A stretch of 64,000 nt of DNA from NCBI RefSeq assembly GCF_040796495.1, contig NZ_JBFNQN010000010.1:1-64000 (forward strand), read 5' to 3'. The translations under genes were made by a program, and so were the position numbers. Below are positions 46,472 to 54,436 of this stretch, piece after piece (position 1 is the first letter of the stretch; each line of letters starts with the position of its first letter). The notes under the pieces were generated by a model. That model had not been told where the DNA came from, ran no database searches, and saw only the letters and a list, made by a program, of their open reading frames with translations. Origin of the DNA: Kineococcus endophyticus. Its GTDB lineage: Bacteria; Actinomycetota; Actinomycetes; Actinomycetales; Kineococcaceae.

Positions 46472-47863
46472 GTGACGCGCACCCGTCCCGCCGCCGTCCT
46501 GGCGGTCGCCGGCCTCGTGCTCGTCGACGGCTGGGGGCCTCCGGTCGCCCAGGCGGTGGCCGCCGTCGGACCCGCCGTCGTGGCCGGCGCCGTCGCCGCG
46601 TCCCGCCTGCGCCGCCGCCCGGTCGCCCTGCGCGCCGCCTGGCTCGTGCAGCTGGCCGGCGTCCTCGTCCTCGCCGTCGGCTACACCGTCTTCCAGCTCA
46701 CGCTGCTCCTCGGCGGGACCCCCGGGTACGCGCTGCCGGCCGACCCGTTCTTCCTGGCCGGCTCCGCCCTGGTCACCGCGTGGTTGCTCCTGCTCAACCG
46801 CGGCACCCGCGACCGGGCCGCCACCGTCGACGCCGGCATCGCCGTCACGGGGCTCGGGGTCGCCGTCACCGCTCTGCTGCTGCGTCCCGCGCTGGCGGGC
46901 GACCCCGACCCGGTCGACGTGGCGTTCACCGCGGTCTACCCGGTGCTCGACCTCCTCGGGCTCGGCCTGCTGCTGCGGTTGCGCCTGGCGGGCCGCGCCC
47001 CGACCCGCCCGGCCAACCTCCTCGCCGCGTCCTGGGGCTGCCTCCTGTTCGGGGACAGCGCCTTCGGTGCGCTGGTCGCCGTCCTCCCCGTCGACGTGCG
47101 GCCCTGGCTGGGCCTTCCGTTCCAGCTCGCCCTGCTGCTGCAGGCCGCCGCGCTGGCGCACGCGCGCTCGGACGACCTGGGGACGGGCATCCCGCGCACG
47201 CGCGCCTGGTCCCGCACCCACTGGGTCGTCGTCGGCGGAGCCGCGTGCCTGCCGCCCGCCGTGCTGCTGGCCCAGGGGTTCGCGGGCGTCACCGTCGACT
47301 GGCTCGTCACGGGCGCCGGGTCGCTCCTGCTGTCGGCGCTCGCCGTCAGCCGCGTCCACCACGCGGTGCTCAGCGTCCAGGGGCAGGCCGACCTGCAGGG
47401 ACGGCTGGCCCGCACCGACGAGCTGACGGGGCTGCCGAACCGCCGCAGCTGGGACGCCGAACTGCGCCGGGCGGCCGAGGGCGGTGGTCCCGTCGCCGTC
47501 GCGCTGCTCGACCTCGACCACTTCAAGCGGCTCAACGACAGCCAGGGCCACGCCGCGGGCGACCTGCTGCTGCGGGCCGCGGCCGACGCGTGGCGGTCCG
47601 CGCTGCCCCCGGACGCGGTGCTGGCCCGGCACGGCGGGGAGGAGTTCGCGCTGCTGCTGCAGGGGGACCTGGTGGCCGTCGCCGACGTCCTGGCCGACCG
47701 CCTGCGGCGGGTGTGCCCGGCGCCGCAGACGGTGTCGGTGGGGCTGGCCGTCCGGCGACCGGGGGAGCACCCGGCGGCGCTGCTGGCCCGCGTGGACGCC
47801 GCGCTCTACCGGGCCAAGGCCGAGGGCCGGGACCGGGTCTGCACCGCTGCTCCGACCGGGTGA
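46472..47863 (+). CDS. Membrane-bound GGDEF diguanylate cyclase
   Basis: This 463-aa protein has eight or more N-terminal hydrophobic helices (residues 5-300) and a C-terminal GGDEF domain (DELTGLPNRRSWDAEL, LLDLDHFKRLNDSQGHAAGDLLL, active loop HGGEEFALLL). Unlike the cyclase at 29386 it lacks an RxxD inhibitory motif at the expected position. The stimulus sensed by the membrane part is unknown. GTG 46472 chosen; evidence for the exact start is weak. Confidence 0.88.
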   Translation: MTRTRPAAVLAVAGLVLVDGWGPPVAQAVAAVGPAVVAGAVAASRLRRRPVALRAAWLVQLAGVLVLAVGYTVFQLTLLLGGTPGYALPADPFFLAGSALVTAWLLLLNRGTRDRAATVDAGIAVTGLGVAVTALLLRPALAGDPDPVDVAFTAVYPVLDLLGLGLLLRLRLAGRAPTRPANLLAASWGCLLFGDSAFGALVAVLPVDVRPWLGLPFQLALLLQAAALAHARSDDLGTGIPRTRAWSRTHWVVVGGAACLPPAVLLAQGFAGVTVDWLVTGAGSLLLSALAVSRVHHAVLSVQGQADLQGRLARTDELTGLPNRRSWDAELRRAAEGGGPVAVALLDLDHFKRLNDSQGHAAGDLLLRAAADAWRSALPPDAVLARHGGEEFALLLQGDLVAVADVLADRLRRVCPAPQTVSVGLAVRRPGEHPAALLARVDAALYRAKAEGRDRVCTAAPTG

Positions 47864-47880
47864 TCTAGAAGAAAGGTGCG

Positions 47881-47900
47881 CGCCGGGGCTCAGCCCGGCG
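47881..47900 (+). terminator. Hairpin behind the GGDEF gene
   Basis: CGCCGGG pairs with CCCGGCG around a 6-nt loop, 17 bp behind the GGDEF stop codon. Confidence 0.6.
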
Positions 47901-47967
47901 CCGGCGGCGACCGATCGATGTCCCACGACCCGCTCCGGGTCGCGCTCCATGGGTCGAGGAGGAAGCC

Positions 47968-48321
47968 GTGAAGCCGTTGCACCAGGTCCTGCGGGACCTC
48001 GAGTTCGCCGCCCACCAGGGGACGCTGACGCCGTCGTTCCTGGATTCGTACGCCCGCCGGAACGGGGAGAAGGTGCTGGCGCTCTACAGCCTCGCCGCCC
48101 GGCACCAGCTGACCGTCGCCCACGAGGAGGGTCGCAACGACCACCTCGCGGTCGAGAAGGAGTGGCACTCCGTCGTGGACGCCACCGCTGTCGAACGGGA
48201 GCTGGACGCCCACAGCGCCGAGGTCGTCCGCCGGGTCCGGGACGCCGCCGACGACGGCCGTCCCGCCTGCCTGCGCAAGCGCAGCCGCACGTCCTTCTTC
48301 CCGCTCAGGACGGCGGTCTGA
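47968..48321 (+). CDS. Hypothetical protein, small helical
   Basis: I do not recognise this 117-aa protein. It begins VKPLHQVLRDLEFAAHQGTLTPSFLDSYARRNGEKVLALYSLAARHQL (split) and ends in a basic segment (CLRKRSRTSFFPLRTAV). It is predicted soluble and mostly helical. GTG 47968 follows GAGGAGGAAG at good spacing. Its stop abuts that of the convergent gene inside a TGATCA palindrome. Confidence 0.7.
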   Translation: MKPLHQVLRDLEFAAHQGTLTPSFLDSYARRNGEKVLALYSLAARHQLTVAHEEGRNDHLAVEKEWHSVVDATAVERELDAHSAEVVRRVRDAADDGRPACLRKRSRTSFFPLRTAV

Positions 48322-48792
48322 TCAGGGCATCTCCATCGTCTCGGCGCGGCGGACCTCCGCCAGCGCCGCGTCGAGGGCCCGCCGCAGGGGGCGTCCCGGG
48401 CCGGTCGCCAGGTCGTGCACGAGCAGCACGGAGTGCTGCAGCACGAGCGCGTGACCGAGCCGGGGCACCTCCTCGGGATCGGGATGCTCCCCGAGCGCGG
48501 CGACCAGGACGACGACGAGGATGCGCGGGTCGAGCCCGCCGAACCACGCGGCACCGCGGGCCGTCGCGGCCATCGCGGCGCGCACGTCGTCGGCGTCGAG
48601 GCCGTCGGGGTGCTGCTCCTCGAGGGCCTGGCGCAGCACCCAGCCGAGGACGACGCGCGCCTGTTCGGCGTCGAACGCCGCCAGGTCCGTCGTCGCCGCG
48701 GTGAAGTCCGCAGCGTCGCCCCGGTGGGCCGCCTCGACGGCACGGGTGACGTGGCGGGTCAGCAGGGTCGGATCGGTCGGCGCGGGGCTCAC
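48322..48792 (-). CDS. Hypothetical protein, helical
   Basis: This 156-aa protein of unknown function has mostly Ala-rich helices (RHVTRAVEAAHRGDAADFTAATTDLAAFDAEQARVVLGWVLRQAL, split) and GLDPRILVVVLVAALGEHPDPEEVPRLGHALVLQHSVLLVHDL. GTG 48792 is 6 nt behind CAGGGT on the minus strand and only 18 bp from the divergent LysR start, which suggests the LysR protein may control it. Confidence 0.7.
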   Translation of the reverse strand: MSPAPTDPTLLTRHVTRAVEAAHRGDAADFTAATTDLAAFDAEQARVVLGWVLRQALEEQHPDGLDADDVRAAMAATARGAAWFGGLDPRILVVVLVAALGEHPDPEEVPRLGHALVLQHSVLLVHDLATGPGRPLRRALDAALAEVRRAETMEMP

Positions 48793-48810
48793 CCGCCTAC
48801 CCTGCCCGAC
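48793..48810. promoter_or_regulatory. Shared bidirectional leaderless promoter
   Basis: Only 18 bp separate divergent start codons. The plus -10 TACCCT (48798-48803) and the minus -10 CAGGGT (48804-48799) overlap in five bases; the spacers to the GTG codons are 7 and 6 nt. Confidence 0.6.
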
Positions 48811-49740
48811 GTGCCCCTCGACCGTGTGCCCGACCTGACCTCGTTGCGCCTGCTCGTCGCGGTCGTGGAGACGGGGTCCATCGGCCGGGGCGCCCGGCGG
48901 GTCGGGCTGACCCAGCAGGCCGCGTCGGAACGGTTGCGCGCCGTGGAGTCCCAGGTCGGGGTCGCCCTCCTGCACCGCAGCCGCCAGGGCTCGCGTCCCA
49001 CCGAGGCGGGCACGCTCCTGACCGGCTGGGCCACCCGGCTGCTCGAGGTCGCCGAGGAGGTGGCCGAGGGCATCGGCACCCTGCGTGCCGACCGGACGTC
49101 GCCGTTGCGGGTGGCGTCCAGCATGACGGTCGCCGAGCACCTGGTGCCCCGGTGGCTGCTGGTCCTGCGGCAGCGGTCCGAGGCCGGGGGAGCGACGCCG
49201 CAGCCGGTGGAACTCCTGGCCACCAACTCCGTGCGGGTGCTCGCCGCCCTGGCCGACGGGGCGGCCGACCTCGGCTTCGTCGAGGGCCCCGACGTCCCGC
49301 GCGGGTTCCGCAGCCGGGAGCTCCTCGAGGACCACCTCGTCGTCGTGGTCGCCCCCGGCCACCCCTGGACGCGGCGCCGTCGCCCGGTGAGGGCCGCGGA
49401 ACTCGCCGCGACCCCGCTGGTCTCCCGCGAACAGGGGTCGGGGACGCGGGACGTCCTCGAACGGGCCCTCGCCGCCGCGGGCCTGACGCCGGTGCCACCC
49501 GCCGTCGAACTCACGACGGCGACGAGCGTGCGCGAGGCCGTGCGTGCCGGTACCGGCGTCGCCGTCCTGAGCCGGCTCGCCGTCGCCGACGACGTCGACG
49601 CGGGGCGGCTGCGCACCGTGGCGGTGGAGGGCCTGGACCTGGGGCGGACGTTGCGTGCGGTGTGGACCGGTGCCGCCCGGATGGCCCCCGGTCCGGCCCG
49701 TGAACTCCTCGGGATCGCGGCGGGGACCGCACACTCCTGA
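48811..49740 (+). CDS. LysR family transcriptional regulator
   Basis: This 309-aa regulator has an N-terminal winged helix (LTSLRLLVAVVETGSIGRGARRVGLTQQAASERLRAVESQVG, split), linker helix and an effector-binding domain of two lobes (RVASSMTVAEHLVPRWLLVL, ADLGFVEGPDVPRGF, SVREAVRAGTGVAVLSRLAV). The effector is unknown. The divergent hypothetical gene and shared promoter make that gene the likely target, and autoregulation likely. Confidence 0.9.
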   Translation: MPLDRVPDLTSLRLLVAVVETGSIGRGARRVGLTQQAASERLRAVESQVGVALLHRSRQGSRPTEAGTLLTGWATRLLEVAEEVAEGIGTLRADRTSPLRVASSMTVAEHLVPRWLLVLRQRSEAGGATPQPVELLATNSVRVLAALADGAADLGFVEGPDVPRGFRSRELLEDHLVVVVAPGHPWTRRRRPVRAAELAATPLVSREQGSGTRDVLERALAAAGLTPVPPAVELTTATSVREAVRAGTGVAVLSRLAVADDVDAGRLRTVAVEGLDLGRTLRAVWTGAARMAPGPARELLGIAAGTAHS

Positions 49741-49749
49741 CCCTTCGTC

Positions 49750-49771
49750 TATTCTTTGCGCATGGACGCAA
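49750..49771 (+). promoter_or_regulatory. Leaderless ArsR promoter with operator over the start codon
   Basis: TATTCT (49750-49755) is 6 nt before ATG 49762. The inverted repeat TTGCG-N6-CGCAA (49756-49760 with 49767-49771) spans the presumed transcription start and start codon, a suitable site for the ArsR dimer. Confidence 0.6.
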
Positions 49772-50145
49772 GTAGTTCGTGCCGTCGCACGCTGCCGGCC
49801 GACCAGGTCGACCTGGCTGTCGAGGTGTTCCGCATGCTGGCCGACGCCACCCGCGTGCACCTGCTGTGGGCCCTCATCGGGCGGGAACTGCCCGTCGGTG
49901 AACTCGCCTCGCACGTCGGCAAACCCGTGCCGTCGGTCTCGCAGCACCTCGCCAAGCTGCGCATGGCCCGCCTCGTCGCGACGCGTCGCGAGGGGGTCCA
50001 GATCTTCTACCGGCTGGAGAACGACCACGTCGCGCAGTTGGTCACGGACGCCGTGCACAACGCCGAGCACGCCGGACCGGGAGTTCCCGGCCACCACCGC
50101 AGCGACCGCGAACTGCGGGCGCTGCACACGGAGGCCGGCGCGTGA
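49762..50145 (+). CDS. ArsR/SmtB family metal-responsive repressor
   Basis: This 127-aa winged-helix repressor has FRMLADATRVHLLWALIGRELPVGELA, and the recognition helix SVSQHLAKLRMARLV. Helix alpha-5 reads NDHVAQLVTDAVHNAEH, which aligns with the CzrA/SmtB metal site (His at 86, 96 and 100 of CzrA numbering, Asn in place of Asp84), and is followed by GHH. Zinc or a related ion (Co, Ni) is the likely signal, supported by the coupled CDF exporter. Its stop overlaps the exporter start (GTGA). Confidence 0.9.
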   Translation: MDASSSCRRTLPADQVDLAVEVFRMLADATRVHLLWALIGRELPVGELASHVGKPVPSVSQHLAKLRMARLVATRREGVQIFYRLENDHVAQLVTDAVHNAEHAGPGVPGHHRSDRELRALHTEAGA

Positions 50146-51068
50146 GCGGCCACGGACACGGCCACGGACACGGCCACGGACACGCCGAGTCCCTCGACGA
50201 CGCTCTCACAGCGAGTTCCGCCGGGATCCGCGCGGTGAAGCTGAGCCTCGTGGGTCTCGCGGTCACCGCTGCGCTGCAGGCCGTCGTGGCGGTCGCGTCG
50301 GGGTCGGTCGCCCTGTTCGCCGACACCGTGCACAACGCCGCCGACGCGCTGACGGCCGTCCCGCTGTGGATCGCCTTCGCGCTGGGACGTCGGGCGGCCA
50401 CCCGGCGGTTCACCTACGGGTACGGCCGGGCCGAGGACCTGGCCGGGCTGTTCGTCGTGGTGGTCATCGCGGCGTCCGCGCTGGTCGCCGGTGTCGAGGC
50501 GGTGCGGCGCCTGCTCGACCCCGCGCCGGTCGAGCACCTGGGCTGGGTGGCGCTGGCCGGTCTGGTGGGTTTCGCCGGGAACGAGGCGGTCGCCCGGCTC
50601 CGCATCCGCACCGGCCGGCGCATCGGTTCCGCCGCCCTCGTCGCGGACGGTCTGCACGCGCGCACCGACGGGTTCACGTCCCTCGCCGTCCTCGTCGGCG
50701 CCGGCGGGGTGGCTGTGGGGTTACCGCTGGCCGACCCGCTCGTGGGGCTGGTCATCACCGTGGCGATCCTGGCCGTCCTGCGCACCGCGGCGCGTGACGT
50801 GTTCGCCCGCCTCATGGACGGGGTGGACCCCGAACTCGTCCACACGGCGGAGGTCACCCTCGCCGCCCAGTCCGGGGTGCTGGCGGTGCGGACGGTCCGG
50901 TTGCGCTGGACTGGCCACCGGTTGCTCGCCGACGCCGAACTCGACGTGGACCCCACCAGCTCCCTCGCGGAGGCGCACGACCTCGCGCACCGTGCCGAAA
51001 CGGCTCTGACGCAAGCGGTCCCGAGGCTCGACCGGGCATTGGTCCACGCGTACCCCGGGCACCCCTAG
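50142..51068 (+). CDS. CDF family divalent metal cation exporter
   Basis: This 308-aa proton-coupled exporter has an N-terminal GHGHGHGHGHGH metal-binding tail, six helices, and the two HxxxD metal sites in helices 2 and 5 (FADTVHNAADAL, DGLHARTDGF). A C-terminal cytoplasmic domain follows. With HxxxD in both helices, zinc is the likeliest substrate. Co-expressed with the ArsR sensor. Its TAG stop shares CTAG with the convergent HNH gene. Confidence 0.92.
   Translation: MSGHGHGHGHGHGHAESLDDALTASSAGIRAVKLSLVGLAVTAALQAVVAVASGSVALFADTVHNAADALTAVPLWIAFALGRRAATRRFTYGYGRAEDLAGLFVVVVIAASALVAGVEAVRRLLDPAPVEHLGWVALAGLVGFAGNEAVARLRIRTGRRIGSAALVADGLHARTDGFTSLAVLVGAGGVAVGLPLADPLVGLVITVAILAVLRTAARDVFARLMDGVDPELVHTAEVTLAAQSGVLAVRTVRLRWTGHRLLADAELDVDPTSSLAEAHDLAHRAETALTQAVPRLDRALVHAYPGHP
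50148..50183 (+). repeat. Three 12-bp repeats coding the His-rich tail
   Basis: GGCCACGGACAC is repeated three times without mismatch, encoding GHGH units; length may vary by slippage. Confidence 0.8.
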
Positions 51069-52567
51069 AACGGTGGCGGGTCGTCGTCGGGGGCAGCGCG
51101 CAGCACCGCGACTCGTGCGGCGCGGTCGTCGACGTGCTCCCACACGAACTGGGTCTTGAACCGGTGGTGTGTCCGGCACAACGCCTGCAGGTTCTCGGCG
51201 GTGGTGGGGCCTTCGGGCCAGGGGACGACGTGGTCCAGGTCGCAGTCCGCGGCCGGTCGCACGCACCCCGGGCCGCGGCACGTCTCGTCGCGGGCGACGA
51301 TGAACCGGCGCAACGCCGCGGAGGGGCGGTAGACGTCGGCGGCGACGTCGATCACCTCGCGGGTGCCGGGGGCGGTGACGACCTTGCGCCAGGTGGCGTC
51401 GGGGTCGGCGGCCAATTCACGCGCCGTCTCGATGGACACCGGGCCGAGGCCGTCCACCCAGGCCGAGTTCTCGGGAAGTTCCCCGCCGTTGTCCTCGTCG
51501 GTGCCGAAGAGGGTGGTCGCGTCGACGCGCAGCAGGACGTGGACGCTGGTCGCGGGCCGGTGACTGCGCCCGGTGGTGACGGGGTGGTCCTCGTCGGCCG
51601 GTTGCTGGTGCTGCTCGTCGGAGGTGGCGGGGGTCCAGCGGGTGAGGCCGTCGCGCAGGACGTCGACGAGGGCGTCGTTGACCCTGGTGGCGTGGTCGCG
51701 GGTGTCGTGCAGGCCGTGGGTCTTGGTGTGGTCGGTGGTGGCGTCGGCGCAGGCGGTGGCGAACGTCATCAACCGCCGTCCCAGGCCCAGGGGGAGCTCC
51801 AGGGACAGGTGGGCGGTGGCGCCGTCCTCGCAGTCGGTCAGAACCGCTTCGCGGCCGGGTTGGCGTCGGTGGCGGGTGATCTGGCGGTGGTGGGGGGTCT
51901 TGCGTTCGACGAGGCGGAAGCAGCGTCCGCGGAGGGCATCGCCGACGTGACCGGCGCGGGCGAAGGTGAGAGCGGCGTCGTAGAAGGTGTCACGGGCCGC
52001 GGTGAGGGCGTCGCCGCTGAGCAGGGCGGCTCCTTCGACGATCTGCTCGACGCCGTTCTCGTCGGTGCTGATCGTGCCGGTGAGGCAGCTCAGGCGCCAG
52101 GCCTGGGAGGTGATGGTCTTGGCCTGGCGCATGGTGATGGAGCCGTCGGCGACGGCGGTCCACAGGCGCCGCTCCGTGGTGCCGGTGTCGTGGGCCCAGG
52201 TGGTGTGCAGGACGGCGGCCTGCAGGTCCATGCCGTGGGCGCGGGAATAGTGCAGGGCGACGAGTTCGAGGGCGCACCGCAGCGGGGTCATGACCCGGCC
52301 GGTGGCCCACTGGGGCAGGCGGCTGCTCCGCTCGACCTGGTCGGTGGCGATGGCGCGTTGGTCGGGGGCGGGGTGGTGGCGCAGGTGTTCGACGAGGTCG
52401 GCCAGGGCGAGCAGTTCGGCCGCTTCGGCCTGGTCCTTGGTACGACGCAGTCCGGCGAGGTGGGCCGTGAGGTCGAGGTCGGTGAACCCGTCGGCGTCGA
52501 GGGGGAACCGGGTCGGCAGCACGGAGCGCGTGGGGTGTCCCGCGTGCTCCAGAACCGCTGCCGTCAT
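51065..52567 (-). CDS. DUF222 / HNH endonuclease domain protein (13E12-type)
   Basis: This 500-aa protein has an N-terminal DUF222 helical region (AEAAELLALADLVEHLRHH, RCALELVALHYSRAHGMD) and a C-terminal HNH nuclease (RDETCRGPGCVRPAADCDLDHVVPWPEGPTTAENLQALCRTHHRFK, split) with Cys ligands and DLDHV. Such REP13E12-like genes are numerous in actinobacterial genomes and behave like dispersed repeats; function is unknown. ATG 52567 is 6 nt behind TAGGAT. Confidence 0.9.
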   Translation of the reverse strand: MTAAVLEHAGHPTRSVLPTRFPLDADGFTDLDLTAHLAGLRRTKDQAEAAELLALADLVEHLRHHPAPDQRAIATDQVERSSRLPQWATGRVMTPLRCALELVALHYSRAHGMDLQAAVLHTTWAHDTGTTERRLWTAVADGSITMRQAKTITSQAWRLSCLTGTISTDENGVEQIVEGAALLSGDALTAARDTFYDAALTFARAGHVGDALRGRCFRLVERKTPHHRQITRHRRQPGREAVLTDCEDGATAHLSLELPLGLGRRLMTFATACADATTDHTKTHGLHDTRDHATRVNDALVDVLRDGLTRWTPATSDEQHQQPADEDHPVTTGRSHRPATSVHVLLRVDATTLFGTDEDNGGELPENSAWVDGLGPVSIETARELAADPDATWRKVVTAPGTREVIDVAADVYRPSAALRRFIVARDETCRGPGCVRPAADCDLDHVVPWPEGPTTAENLQALCRTHHRFKTQFVWEHVDDRAARVAVLRAAPDDDPPPF

Positions 52568-52579
52568 GCCCTGATCCTA
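52568..52579 (-). promoter_or_regulatory. Leaderless -10 element, TAGGAT-N6-ATG
   Basis: Minus-strand TAGGAT (52579-52574) lies 6 nt before ATG 52567. Confidence 0.55.
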
Positions 52580-52650
52580 CCGTCCAGGATCCGTTCGAAC
52601 AAGGCGAACACGCTGTGCAGCAGCGACTTCGGAGAGTCGACGGCCTGATC

Positions 52651-53541
52651 TCATCGCCGCGCGATCCACCGCTCCGCGGGCACCGGCGGGAGTTCCCCGG
52701 CGATCTGCCAGGGCCTCCCGAGGACCTCGGGCGGGTCGACGTAGAGGCGCGTCGTCCGGTGCAGGACAGCCCCCGGAGCCGGGTGCCCCACGACGGTCCA
52801 GGCACCCGGGTCGCGACGGAACTCCGCCACCTGCGCGCCCGTCGCGGGGTGCGTGAGCAGGAGGACCCAGAACTCGTCGTCGGTCATCGAGTGAATCCCC
52901 GGTCCGTCGACGACGGCGGCGGACCAGTTCCGGACGAGTCCCGTGGCGACCACGTTGGCGGGGGAGGACTGCGACCAGGCCTCGTCGACGACGAGGTCGG
53001 AGAGGACCCGCGCCGTCGCGGGGGAACACGTCACGGCGCCGTCGACCCACGAGCACCCAGCGAGGAGTTCCGCCGGGTCCACCGGGCGGCCGCGCACCCG
53101 GGCGCTGCGGGCGTAGGAGTCGAGGTGGTCCAGCGTCATGAGGCCCGGACGGCGGGGTTCGACGGGGACGACCCCGTGCCGGTCGAGGACGGGCCGCAGT
53201 TTCGCGCGCCGACGTCGTCCGAGCTCGTGGTGGTCGAGCCCGCCCAGCCCCTCGAACGTGTGGCTCAGCGGCAGGTGCCCGATGTCGTGCAGCAGCGCCC
53301 CCGCCCTCGCCGCGTGGTCGTCGGGTGCGACGTGCGCGGTGAGGGCGAGGACGCCGAGGGAGTGCTCGAGCCGGGAGTACGACTGCGTGGTCACCGCGGC
53401 CGCGGCGCCGGCGTGCGCGACGAACTGCAGGCGGCGCACCCACCACGACCGCAGGAGCTCCCGCTCCAGCGGGGTGAGGACGACCGTGACGCCCCACAGC
53501 GGGTCGCGGTAGGTCCCGTCGAGGGCGAGGGTGTCGCTCAC
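52651..53541 (-). CDS. HD domain phosphohydrolase
   Basis: This 296-aa metal-dependent phosphohydrolase of SAMHD1/dGTPase-like kind has YSRLEHSLGVLAL (first His), LLHDIGHLPLSHTFEGL (HD pair) and a downstream Asp in TLDHLDSYARSARVRG. Likely substrates are nucleotides or phosphorylated metabolites, but none can be assigned. GTG 53541 lies 6 nt behind CAGACT, a degenerate leaderless -10. It follows aztC on the same strand. Confidence 0.85.
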   Translation of the reverse strand: MSDTLALDGTYRDPLWGVTVVLTPLERELLRSWWVRRLQFVAHAGAAAAVTTQSYSRLEHSLGVLALTAHVAPDDHAARAGALLHDIGHLPLSHTFEGLGGLDHHELGRRRRAKLRPVLDRHGVVPVEPRRPGLMTLDHLDSYARSARVRGRPVDPAELLAGCSWVDGAVTCSPATARVLSDLVVDEAWSQSSPANVVATGLVRNWSAAVVDGPGIHSMTDDEFWVLLLTHPATGAQVAEFRRDPGAWTVVGHPAPGAVLHRTTRLYVDPPEVLGRPWQIAGELPPVPAERWIARR

Positions 53542-53575: not shown

Positions 53576-54436
53576 TCAGGCCGAGCAGTTCAGCCCGGTC
53601 CGCAGGGCCTCGAGGTTCTCGCGCATCAACGACAGGTAGTCCTGGCCCTCGTCGACGCGTTCGACGGGGTGCAGCACCGCGGTCTCCACGCCGAGGTCGC
53701 GGGCGAGCTTGTCCGCGACCGCGGGGTTGGCCGTCTCCTCGAAGAAGACCGTGGTGACCGAGTTCTCCCGGGCCACCTCCATCACGTCGCGGACGCGGGC
53801 GGGGGAGGGTTCCACCTCGGGGTCGACCCCGGCGATGCCGATCTGCCGCAACCCGTACCGCTGCGCGAGGTAGCCGAACGCCTCGTGCGAGGTGACGAGC
53901 GCGGCGTCCCGGCACCCGGCGAGCGCCGAGGCGTAGTCGGCGTCGAGGCGCTCCATCTCGCCGGCGAACCGGTCGGCCCCCGCGCGGTACGCCTCGGAAC
54001 CGTCGGGGTCGACCTCGGCGAGCTCGCCGGCCACGTCGCGACCGAGCGAGGCCATCCGGACCGGGTCGAGCCAGAAGTGCGGGTCGCGGTCGTCGTCGGC
54101 GTACTGCGCGGCGTCGACGAGGTGCCGCGGCGGCCGGGCGTCGAGGGCGTCGTCGATCGCGGGTTGCAGCCCGCTGAGGTGGACGACGACGTCCGCGTCC
54201 ACCATCTCGGCCACCTGCCGGGTCGTGACCTCGGTGCCGTGGCTGTCGTCCCCGGCGGCCAGGACGCTCGTCACCACCGCCCGGTCCCCGGCCACGGCCT
54301 CGGCCGTGAACTGCAGGGGGTGGGACGTGGTCACCACGCTCACCCCGTCCTCCCCGCCGGTCTGCGGGTCCGGTGACCCGCAGGCGGCGAGGAGGGCGAG
54401 GGCCAGCGCGCCGCCGGCCAGCGGCGCGGACCTCAC
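53576..54436 (-). CDS. aztC: Zinc ABC transporter substrate-binding lipoprotein AztC-like
   Basis: This 286-aa cluster A-I metal-binding protein has a lipoprotein signal with lipobox LLAAC, then putative ligands in TTSHPLQF, DDSHGTEV, RDPHFWLDP, VTSHEAFGYL and an acidic FFEETANP. It would capture zinc outside the membrane for an AztAB permease. The GTG overlaps the aztD stop by 4 nt. No permease or ATPase gene follows; the next gene is an HD hydrolase. Confidence 0.88.
   Translation of the reverse strand: MRSAPLAGGALALALLAACGSPDPQTGGEDGVSVVTTSHPLQFTAEAVAGDRAVVTSVLAAGDDSHGTEVTTRQVAEMVDADVVVHLSGLQPAIDDALDARPPRHLVDAAQYADDDRDPHFWLDPVRMASLGRDVAGELAEVDPDGSEAYRAGADRFAGEMERLDADYASALAGCRDAALVTSHEAFGYLAQRYGLRQIGIAGVDPEVEPSPARVRDVMEVARENSVTTVFFEETANPAVADKLARDLGVETAVLHPVERVDEGQDYLSLMRENLEALRTGLNCSA

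Follow-up and report, generated by a model that had tools for sequence, protein, structure and literature searches.

Two divergent genes and the gap between them

Within the window, i.e. the 64,000-nt stretch of Kineococcus endophyticus DNA analysed here (GC content 73-79%), a gene for a LysR-family transcriptional regulator and a gene for a 156-aa protein of unassigned function face away from each other, with GTG start codons that are 19 positions apart and 18 bp (CCGCCTACCCTGCCCGAC) between them (Table 1). This is the distance that an earlier sequence-only reading had given, and the start codons confirm it. The LysR-type protein matched PF00126 (HTH) and PF03466 (substrate-binding) with E values of 7.6e-17 and 3.6e-40, respectively. 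Ten of 11 genomes of the genus encode a relative of the minus-strand protein, and so do 3 of 68 further genomes in the search; in a scan of named genomes, the matches listed included at least one relative, from Planosporangium. A single-sequence fold prediction of this protein was all-helical, at low confidence (mean pLDDT 54.9). Its C-terminus reads RRAET(M/V)EMP in the nine genus members read and AETMEMP in Planosporangium.

Table 1 Features of the divergent locus (window coordinates)
Feature	Position	Strand	Remarks
156-aa protein, function unassigned, probably leaderless	48322..48792 (GTG 48792-48790)	-	no Pfam or NCBIfam family at cut-off
Gap between the start codons	48793..48810		18/18 bases same in sister genome G006
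Putative -10 hexamer of LysR, TACCCT	48798..48803	+	7 nt before GTG; in 7/7 genomes TANNNT precedes the GTG of the orthologue by 6 or 7 nt
Putative -10 hexamer of the minus gene, CAGGGT	48799..48804 (minus reading 48804-48799)	-	6 nt before GTG; A(-11) and T(-7) invariant in 9/9 genomes
Shared ANNNT core	48799..48803		common to both hexamers; geometry of the kind given in PMC10268837
LysR-family transcriptional regulator, 309 aa, probably leaderless	48811..49740 (GTG 48811-48813)	+	PF00126, PF03466; GTG 48811 kept in 7/7 genomes

Beyond the LysR gene, five of six relatives carry, tail-to-tail with it, a gene for a ZnuA-type zinc-binding lipoprotein (PF01297; positions 53576-54436 on the minus strand of the window), with ~2.2 kb between the two in relative G001. 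In the genome studied here, the interval from 49762 to 53541 between them holds ArsR, cation-efflux (CDF), HNH-domain and HD-domain genes, and the ArsR gene also looks leaderless, with TATTCT 6 nt before its ATG (49750-49764).

Inspection of the gap bore out the proposal that the candidate -10 hexamers on the two strands overlap in five of their six bases. Through these common bases, the A(-11) of each promoter is paired with the T(-7) of the opposite one, so that A48799 and T48803 serve both hexamers, as in a shared symmetric -10 element. The minus hexamer, which has neither T at -12 nor A at -8, makes a poor -10. As both transcripts are presumed to begin with G, where A would be usual, T at -18 is absent from either strand when counted from these starts; the plus strand has C (48793) and the minus strand G (48810) at this position. 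Consensus scans of positions 47500-50500 for sigma-70 promoters and terminators found neither, with models that depend on a -35 and are ill suited to this genome.

Both promoters resemble those of leaderless genes

We profiled the spacing between TANNNT and 220 starts called on a 230-kb contig (C10) of the same genome by a rough gene caller, which in the window overlooked the ArsR gene in favour of an ORF on the opposite strand and put the LysR start at 48826. TANNNT lay 6 nt (12 starts) or 7 nt (5 starts) before the start in 17 of the 220, and at any other spacing from 0 to 29 in at most one start each. By this count, leaderless-type promoters are common in this genome. A published survey locates TANNNT signals ~12 bp upstream of start codons in bacteria and gives a share of more than twenty percent leaderless genes for Actinobacteria (PMC3160421), and mapped leaderless starts are reported for Mycobacterium tuberculosis (PMC3898074).

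Orthologues within the genus were then compared. For LysR, TANNNT lies 7 nt before the GTG in the window's species (G000), its sister G006 and G005, and 6 nt before it in G008, G001, G007 and G003, i.e. in all seven genomes. Among four more distant LysR matches, judged by eye, three (one in G010 and the second LysR copies of G000 and G001) have an in-frame GTG that TANNNT precedes by 6-7 nt; this is not so for the fourth, which has 31% identity. Upstream DNA of the minus gene was readable in nine of the 11 genomes (G002 gave no match and G004 was cut by a contig end), and all nine have A at -11 and T at -7. These are not the sole fixed columns before the minus gene, since the G residues at -14 and -9 are invariant as well. 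None of the nine hexamers has T at -12, and this element is therefore TANNNT-like rather than a full TANNNT.

Because orthologues keep both hexamers at these offsets, a chance origin is hard to credit. Taking a leaderless promoter to be a TANNNT-like -10 that lies 6-7 nt before the start and is kept in orthologues, LysR has one in full (TANNNT in 7/7) and the minus gene in part (A(-11) and T(-7) in 9/9, T(-12) in 0/9). Both the LysR gene and its 156-aa neighbour are thus probably leaderless, in keeping with what had been proposed for them; the fixed -10 offsets argue for this assignment on grounds of sequence.

The minus gene keeps A(-11) and T(-7) also in G009 and G010, where this LysR does not adjoin, and in G003, where LysR is ~1,120 bp away and another ORF lies in between, one that we take to resemble an S58-type peptidase. 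This conservation within the genus, also without LysR as a neighbour, points to two promoters that are independent of each other and probably old.

A probably lineage-specific fusion of the two -10 elements

Head-to-head arrangement of the two genes was found in six genomes, with gaps of 18 bp (G000), 18 bp (G006), 23 bp (G008), 38 bp (G005), 39 bp (G001) and 52 bp (G007), next to the interval of about 1,120 bp in G003. Overlap of the -10s by five bases is confined to G000 and G006 and absent in five of the seven genomes having both genes: in G008 the hexamers have one base in common, and in G005, G001, G007 and G003 they are separate. A seven-taxon tree, in which one of four inner branches is firmly supported, joins G000 with G006 (support 99/98), the other inner branches being weaker. 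Identity of all gap bases between these two genomes has a P of about 5e-4 at the four-fold rate and of 0.05 at the all-site rate; identical coding 18-mers number 47 of 883 and 53 of 451 in the two genes. These figures argue against any strong claim of selection on the gap, and its identity was not taken as a sign of selection.

Conservation of the 18-bp spacing in relatives had been put forward as a check on an extreme bidirectional promoter, and the spacing is poorly conserved. This leaves a conserved design poorly supported, the overlap being found in G000 and G006 only; the two-promoter reading is well supported, and the overlap geometry stands. Rather than a conserved device, the shared -10 appears to be the product of two older promoters that merged in one lineage. 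From the seven-taxon tree, the gap would appear to have shrunk in the G000/G006 lineage rather than to have grown elsewhere.

We consider it probable (roughly 0.8) that the locus comprises two independent leaderless promoters of the TANNNT kind, whose -10s coincide in the G000/G006 lineage to form one pseudo-symmetric bidirectional -10. Each promoter would be fixed 6-7 nt before its own GTG, facing away from the other, and in this lineage the start codons would have come so close that the -10s coincide and A(-11) and T(-7) are reciprocally shared. RNA polymerase with its presumed sigma factor would load in one orientation at a time and start no more than about 2 nt from each GTG, giving leaderless mRNAs. 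Since both promoters look weak (no -35 found, a GC-rich -10), the outcome may be two low, largely independent transcripts, with interference arising only if one direction were strongly activated.

Possible regulation by LysR, expected mutual exclusion and alternative starts

Control of this promoter by LysR is possible. In its classical divergent form, as proposed for LysG/lysE, LysR would bind across the gap, repress itself and activate its partner. The head-to-head arrangement in six genomes would suit such control, for which M. tuberculosis LysG/lysE, with overlapping -10 and -35 motifs, is a precedent (PMC5648196). However, a narrow scan for 13-bp T-N11-A dyads (at least four of five symmetric pairs, up to 140 bp from the LysR start in both directions) gave none in G000, G006, G008 and G001, and the single matches in G005, G007 and G003 lie at differing places inside the LysR gene, shuffled sequences giving ~0.15 per genome. 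Nor did the LysR 5′ coding region carry an operator signal in the form of excess synonymous conservation, with values of 0.59 and 0.54 there versus 0.55, 0.64 and 0.60 deeper within the gene (8-15 sites per bin, six genomes). Moreover, the minus gene keeps its promoter where LysR does not adjoin (G009 and G010). We therefore regard the classical form as rather unlikely. The assertion that the locus leaves no room for operators is too strong, because either coding region can hold them.

RNA polymerase has a footprint of about 75 bp, and at divergent promoters whose starts are separated by 20-55 bp the footprints are expected to collide. As they would also do so in the relatives with gaps of 23-52 bp, fusion of the -10s adds little to exclusion. 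At bidirectional promoters, a class defined by divergent transcription starts 7-25 bp apart, two polymerases are stated to be unable to bind at once (PMC12825309); the earlier claim that polymerase binds here one way or the other, and not both, is thus a supported expectation. A selected reciprocal switch, in which polymerase bound for LysR blocks the partner and vice versa so as to set the protein ratio, would draw on this steric exclusion and on the five-base overlap and identical gap of G000 and G006. Yet that overlap is missing in five of seven genomes with both genes, no functional link between LysR and the 156-aa protein was found in this analysis, and in PMC12825309 none of the five E. 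coli promoters tested had enough basal activity for competition, which could appear on activation. By analogy, the same low-competition behaviour would be expected at the promoter described here, and a selected switch appears very unlikely. Most improbable is that one or both starts are wrong, with LysR beginning at GTG 48826, where the rough caller had set it, or the mRNAs carrying short leaders, and with the -10 matches due to chance in either case, given that the upstream GTG is kept throughout (Table 1), that position 48826 reads GTC or GTT in four of six orthologues and that the -10 offsets are fixed in 9/9 and 7/7 genomes.

Overlapping -10 elements among divergent pairs

A search of 230 kb of this genome called 38 divergent pairs, five of them with both -10s in leaderless position within 150 bp, and 400 kb of G001 gave 73 pairs, eight of which were of this kind; the pair described here is the only one among these 13 with overlapping -10s, in a scan that used the rough caller, allowed alternative starts within 120 nt and required T(-12) on the plus side only, so that pairs may be missed. 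When the T(-12) requirement was dropped, four pairs within 60 bp were found in the 230 kb, again with this one alone overlapping.

Scanning the whole assembly (46 contigs) with a composite pattern, in which CAY and RTG flank one -10 with T(-12) on at least one strand and TTG starts are excluded, yielded 31 matches versus 10 for a reversed-pattern control. Coding-like ORFs on both sides were present at six of the 31, namely L063, L070 (this pair), L078, L081, L084 and L086, under thresholds that were set after seeing the tables (at least 80 aa; GC of at most 0.60 at second and at least 0.85 at third codon positions over the first 450 nt). Relatives were compared for L070 alone among these six; some start codons at the other five may be wrong, and the minus gene of L063 may begin at a later ATG. 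We dropped the idea that the excess of 31 over 10 marks a class of two-way leaderless promoters. Since 25 of the 31 fail the ORF thresholds on at least one side, the excess seems to consist mostly of ordinary one-way leaderless genes. At L084 (G000:C12:118818-118842), close divergent starts surround one TAGCGT, with coding-like ORFs of 208 aa and 197 aa.

Discussion

The pair appears to represent an extreme example of an already described type of bidirectional promoter in bacteria, and ties together two things already known, namely symmetric -10 elements and the leaderless genes of Actinobacteria. The gap series within one genus (18, 23, 38, 39, 52 and about 1,120 bp) presents the same leaderless promoters fused, touching or apart, a natural series that would allow the cost or gain of -10 sharing to be measured. 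A farther-reaching proposal is that a minimal two-way promoter of five shared bases drives two leaderless mRNAs, with polymerase orientation alone setting the ratio of regulator to neighbour, and with the promoter, both transcription starts and both start codons contained within 24 bp. We hold this to be distinctly unlikely. If it were true, divergent genes could, through leaderless initiation, be packed as tightly as the geometry of a bidirectional -10 permits, and each actinobacterial genome may contain a few pairs of this kind (six candidates among the pattern matches obtained here).

Among the titles and abstract openings listed in searches of open-access literature, none concerned two leaderless genes sharing one -10. 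The nearest likeness is to the shared symmetric -10 promoters of Warman, Grainger and colleagues, whose commonest form, as described in PMC10268837 and PMC12825309, has starts 18 bp apart and -7T and -11A reciprocally paired, and which load one polymerase at a time. Unlike in those promoters, both transcripts here would be leaderless, with starts presumed from the DNA itself, and the 18 bp lie between the start codons themselves; transcription would begin with G instead of A, and T(-18), where the other start's A usually lies opposite, is lacking, a base that PMC10268837 gives as usual but not required.

With the leaderless TANNNT promoters of Actinobacteria, as described in PMC3160421 and PMC3898074, the locus has in common a TANNNT about 12 bp before the start codon, the lack of a -35 and GTG starts. 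It differs from the typical ones in that two overlap head to head and the minus one is without T(-12). The M. tuberculosis genes Rv1129c/Rv1130 are a divergent leaderless regulator pair, and closely juxtaposed divergent promoters are called common in the same source (PMC3898074); in these passages, unlike for the pair here, no five-base -10 overlap is stated. Finally, lysG/lysE of M. tuberculosis likewise combines a divergent LysR-family gene with overlapping promoter motifs and one leaderless transcript, but has 108 bp between its genes, with an inverted repeat to which LysG binds, as described in PMC5648196, whereas the gap here is 18 bp and no such repeat was found.
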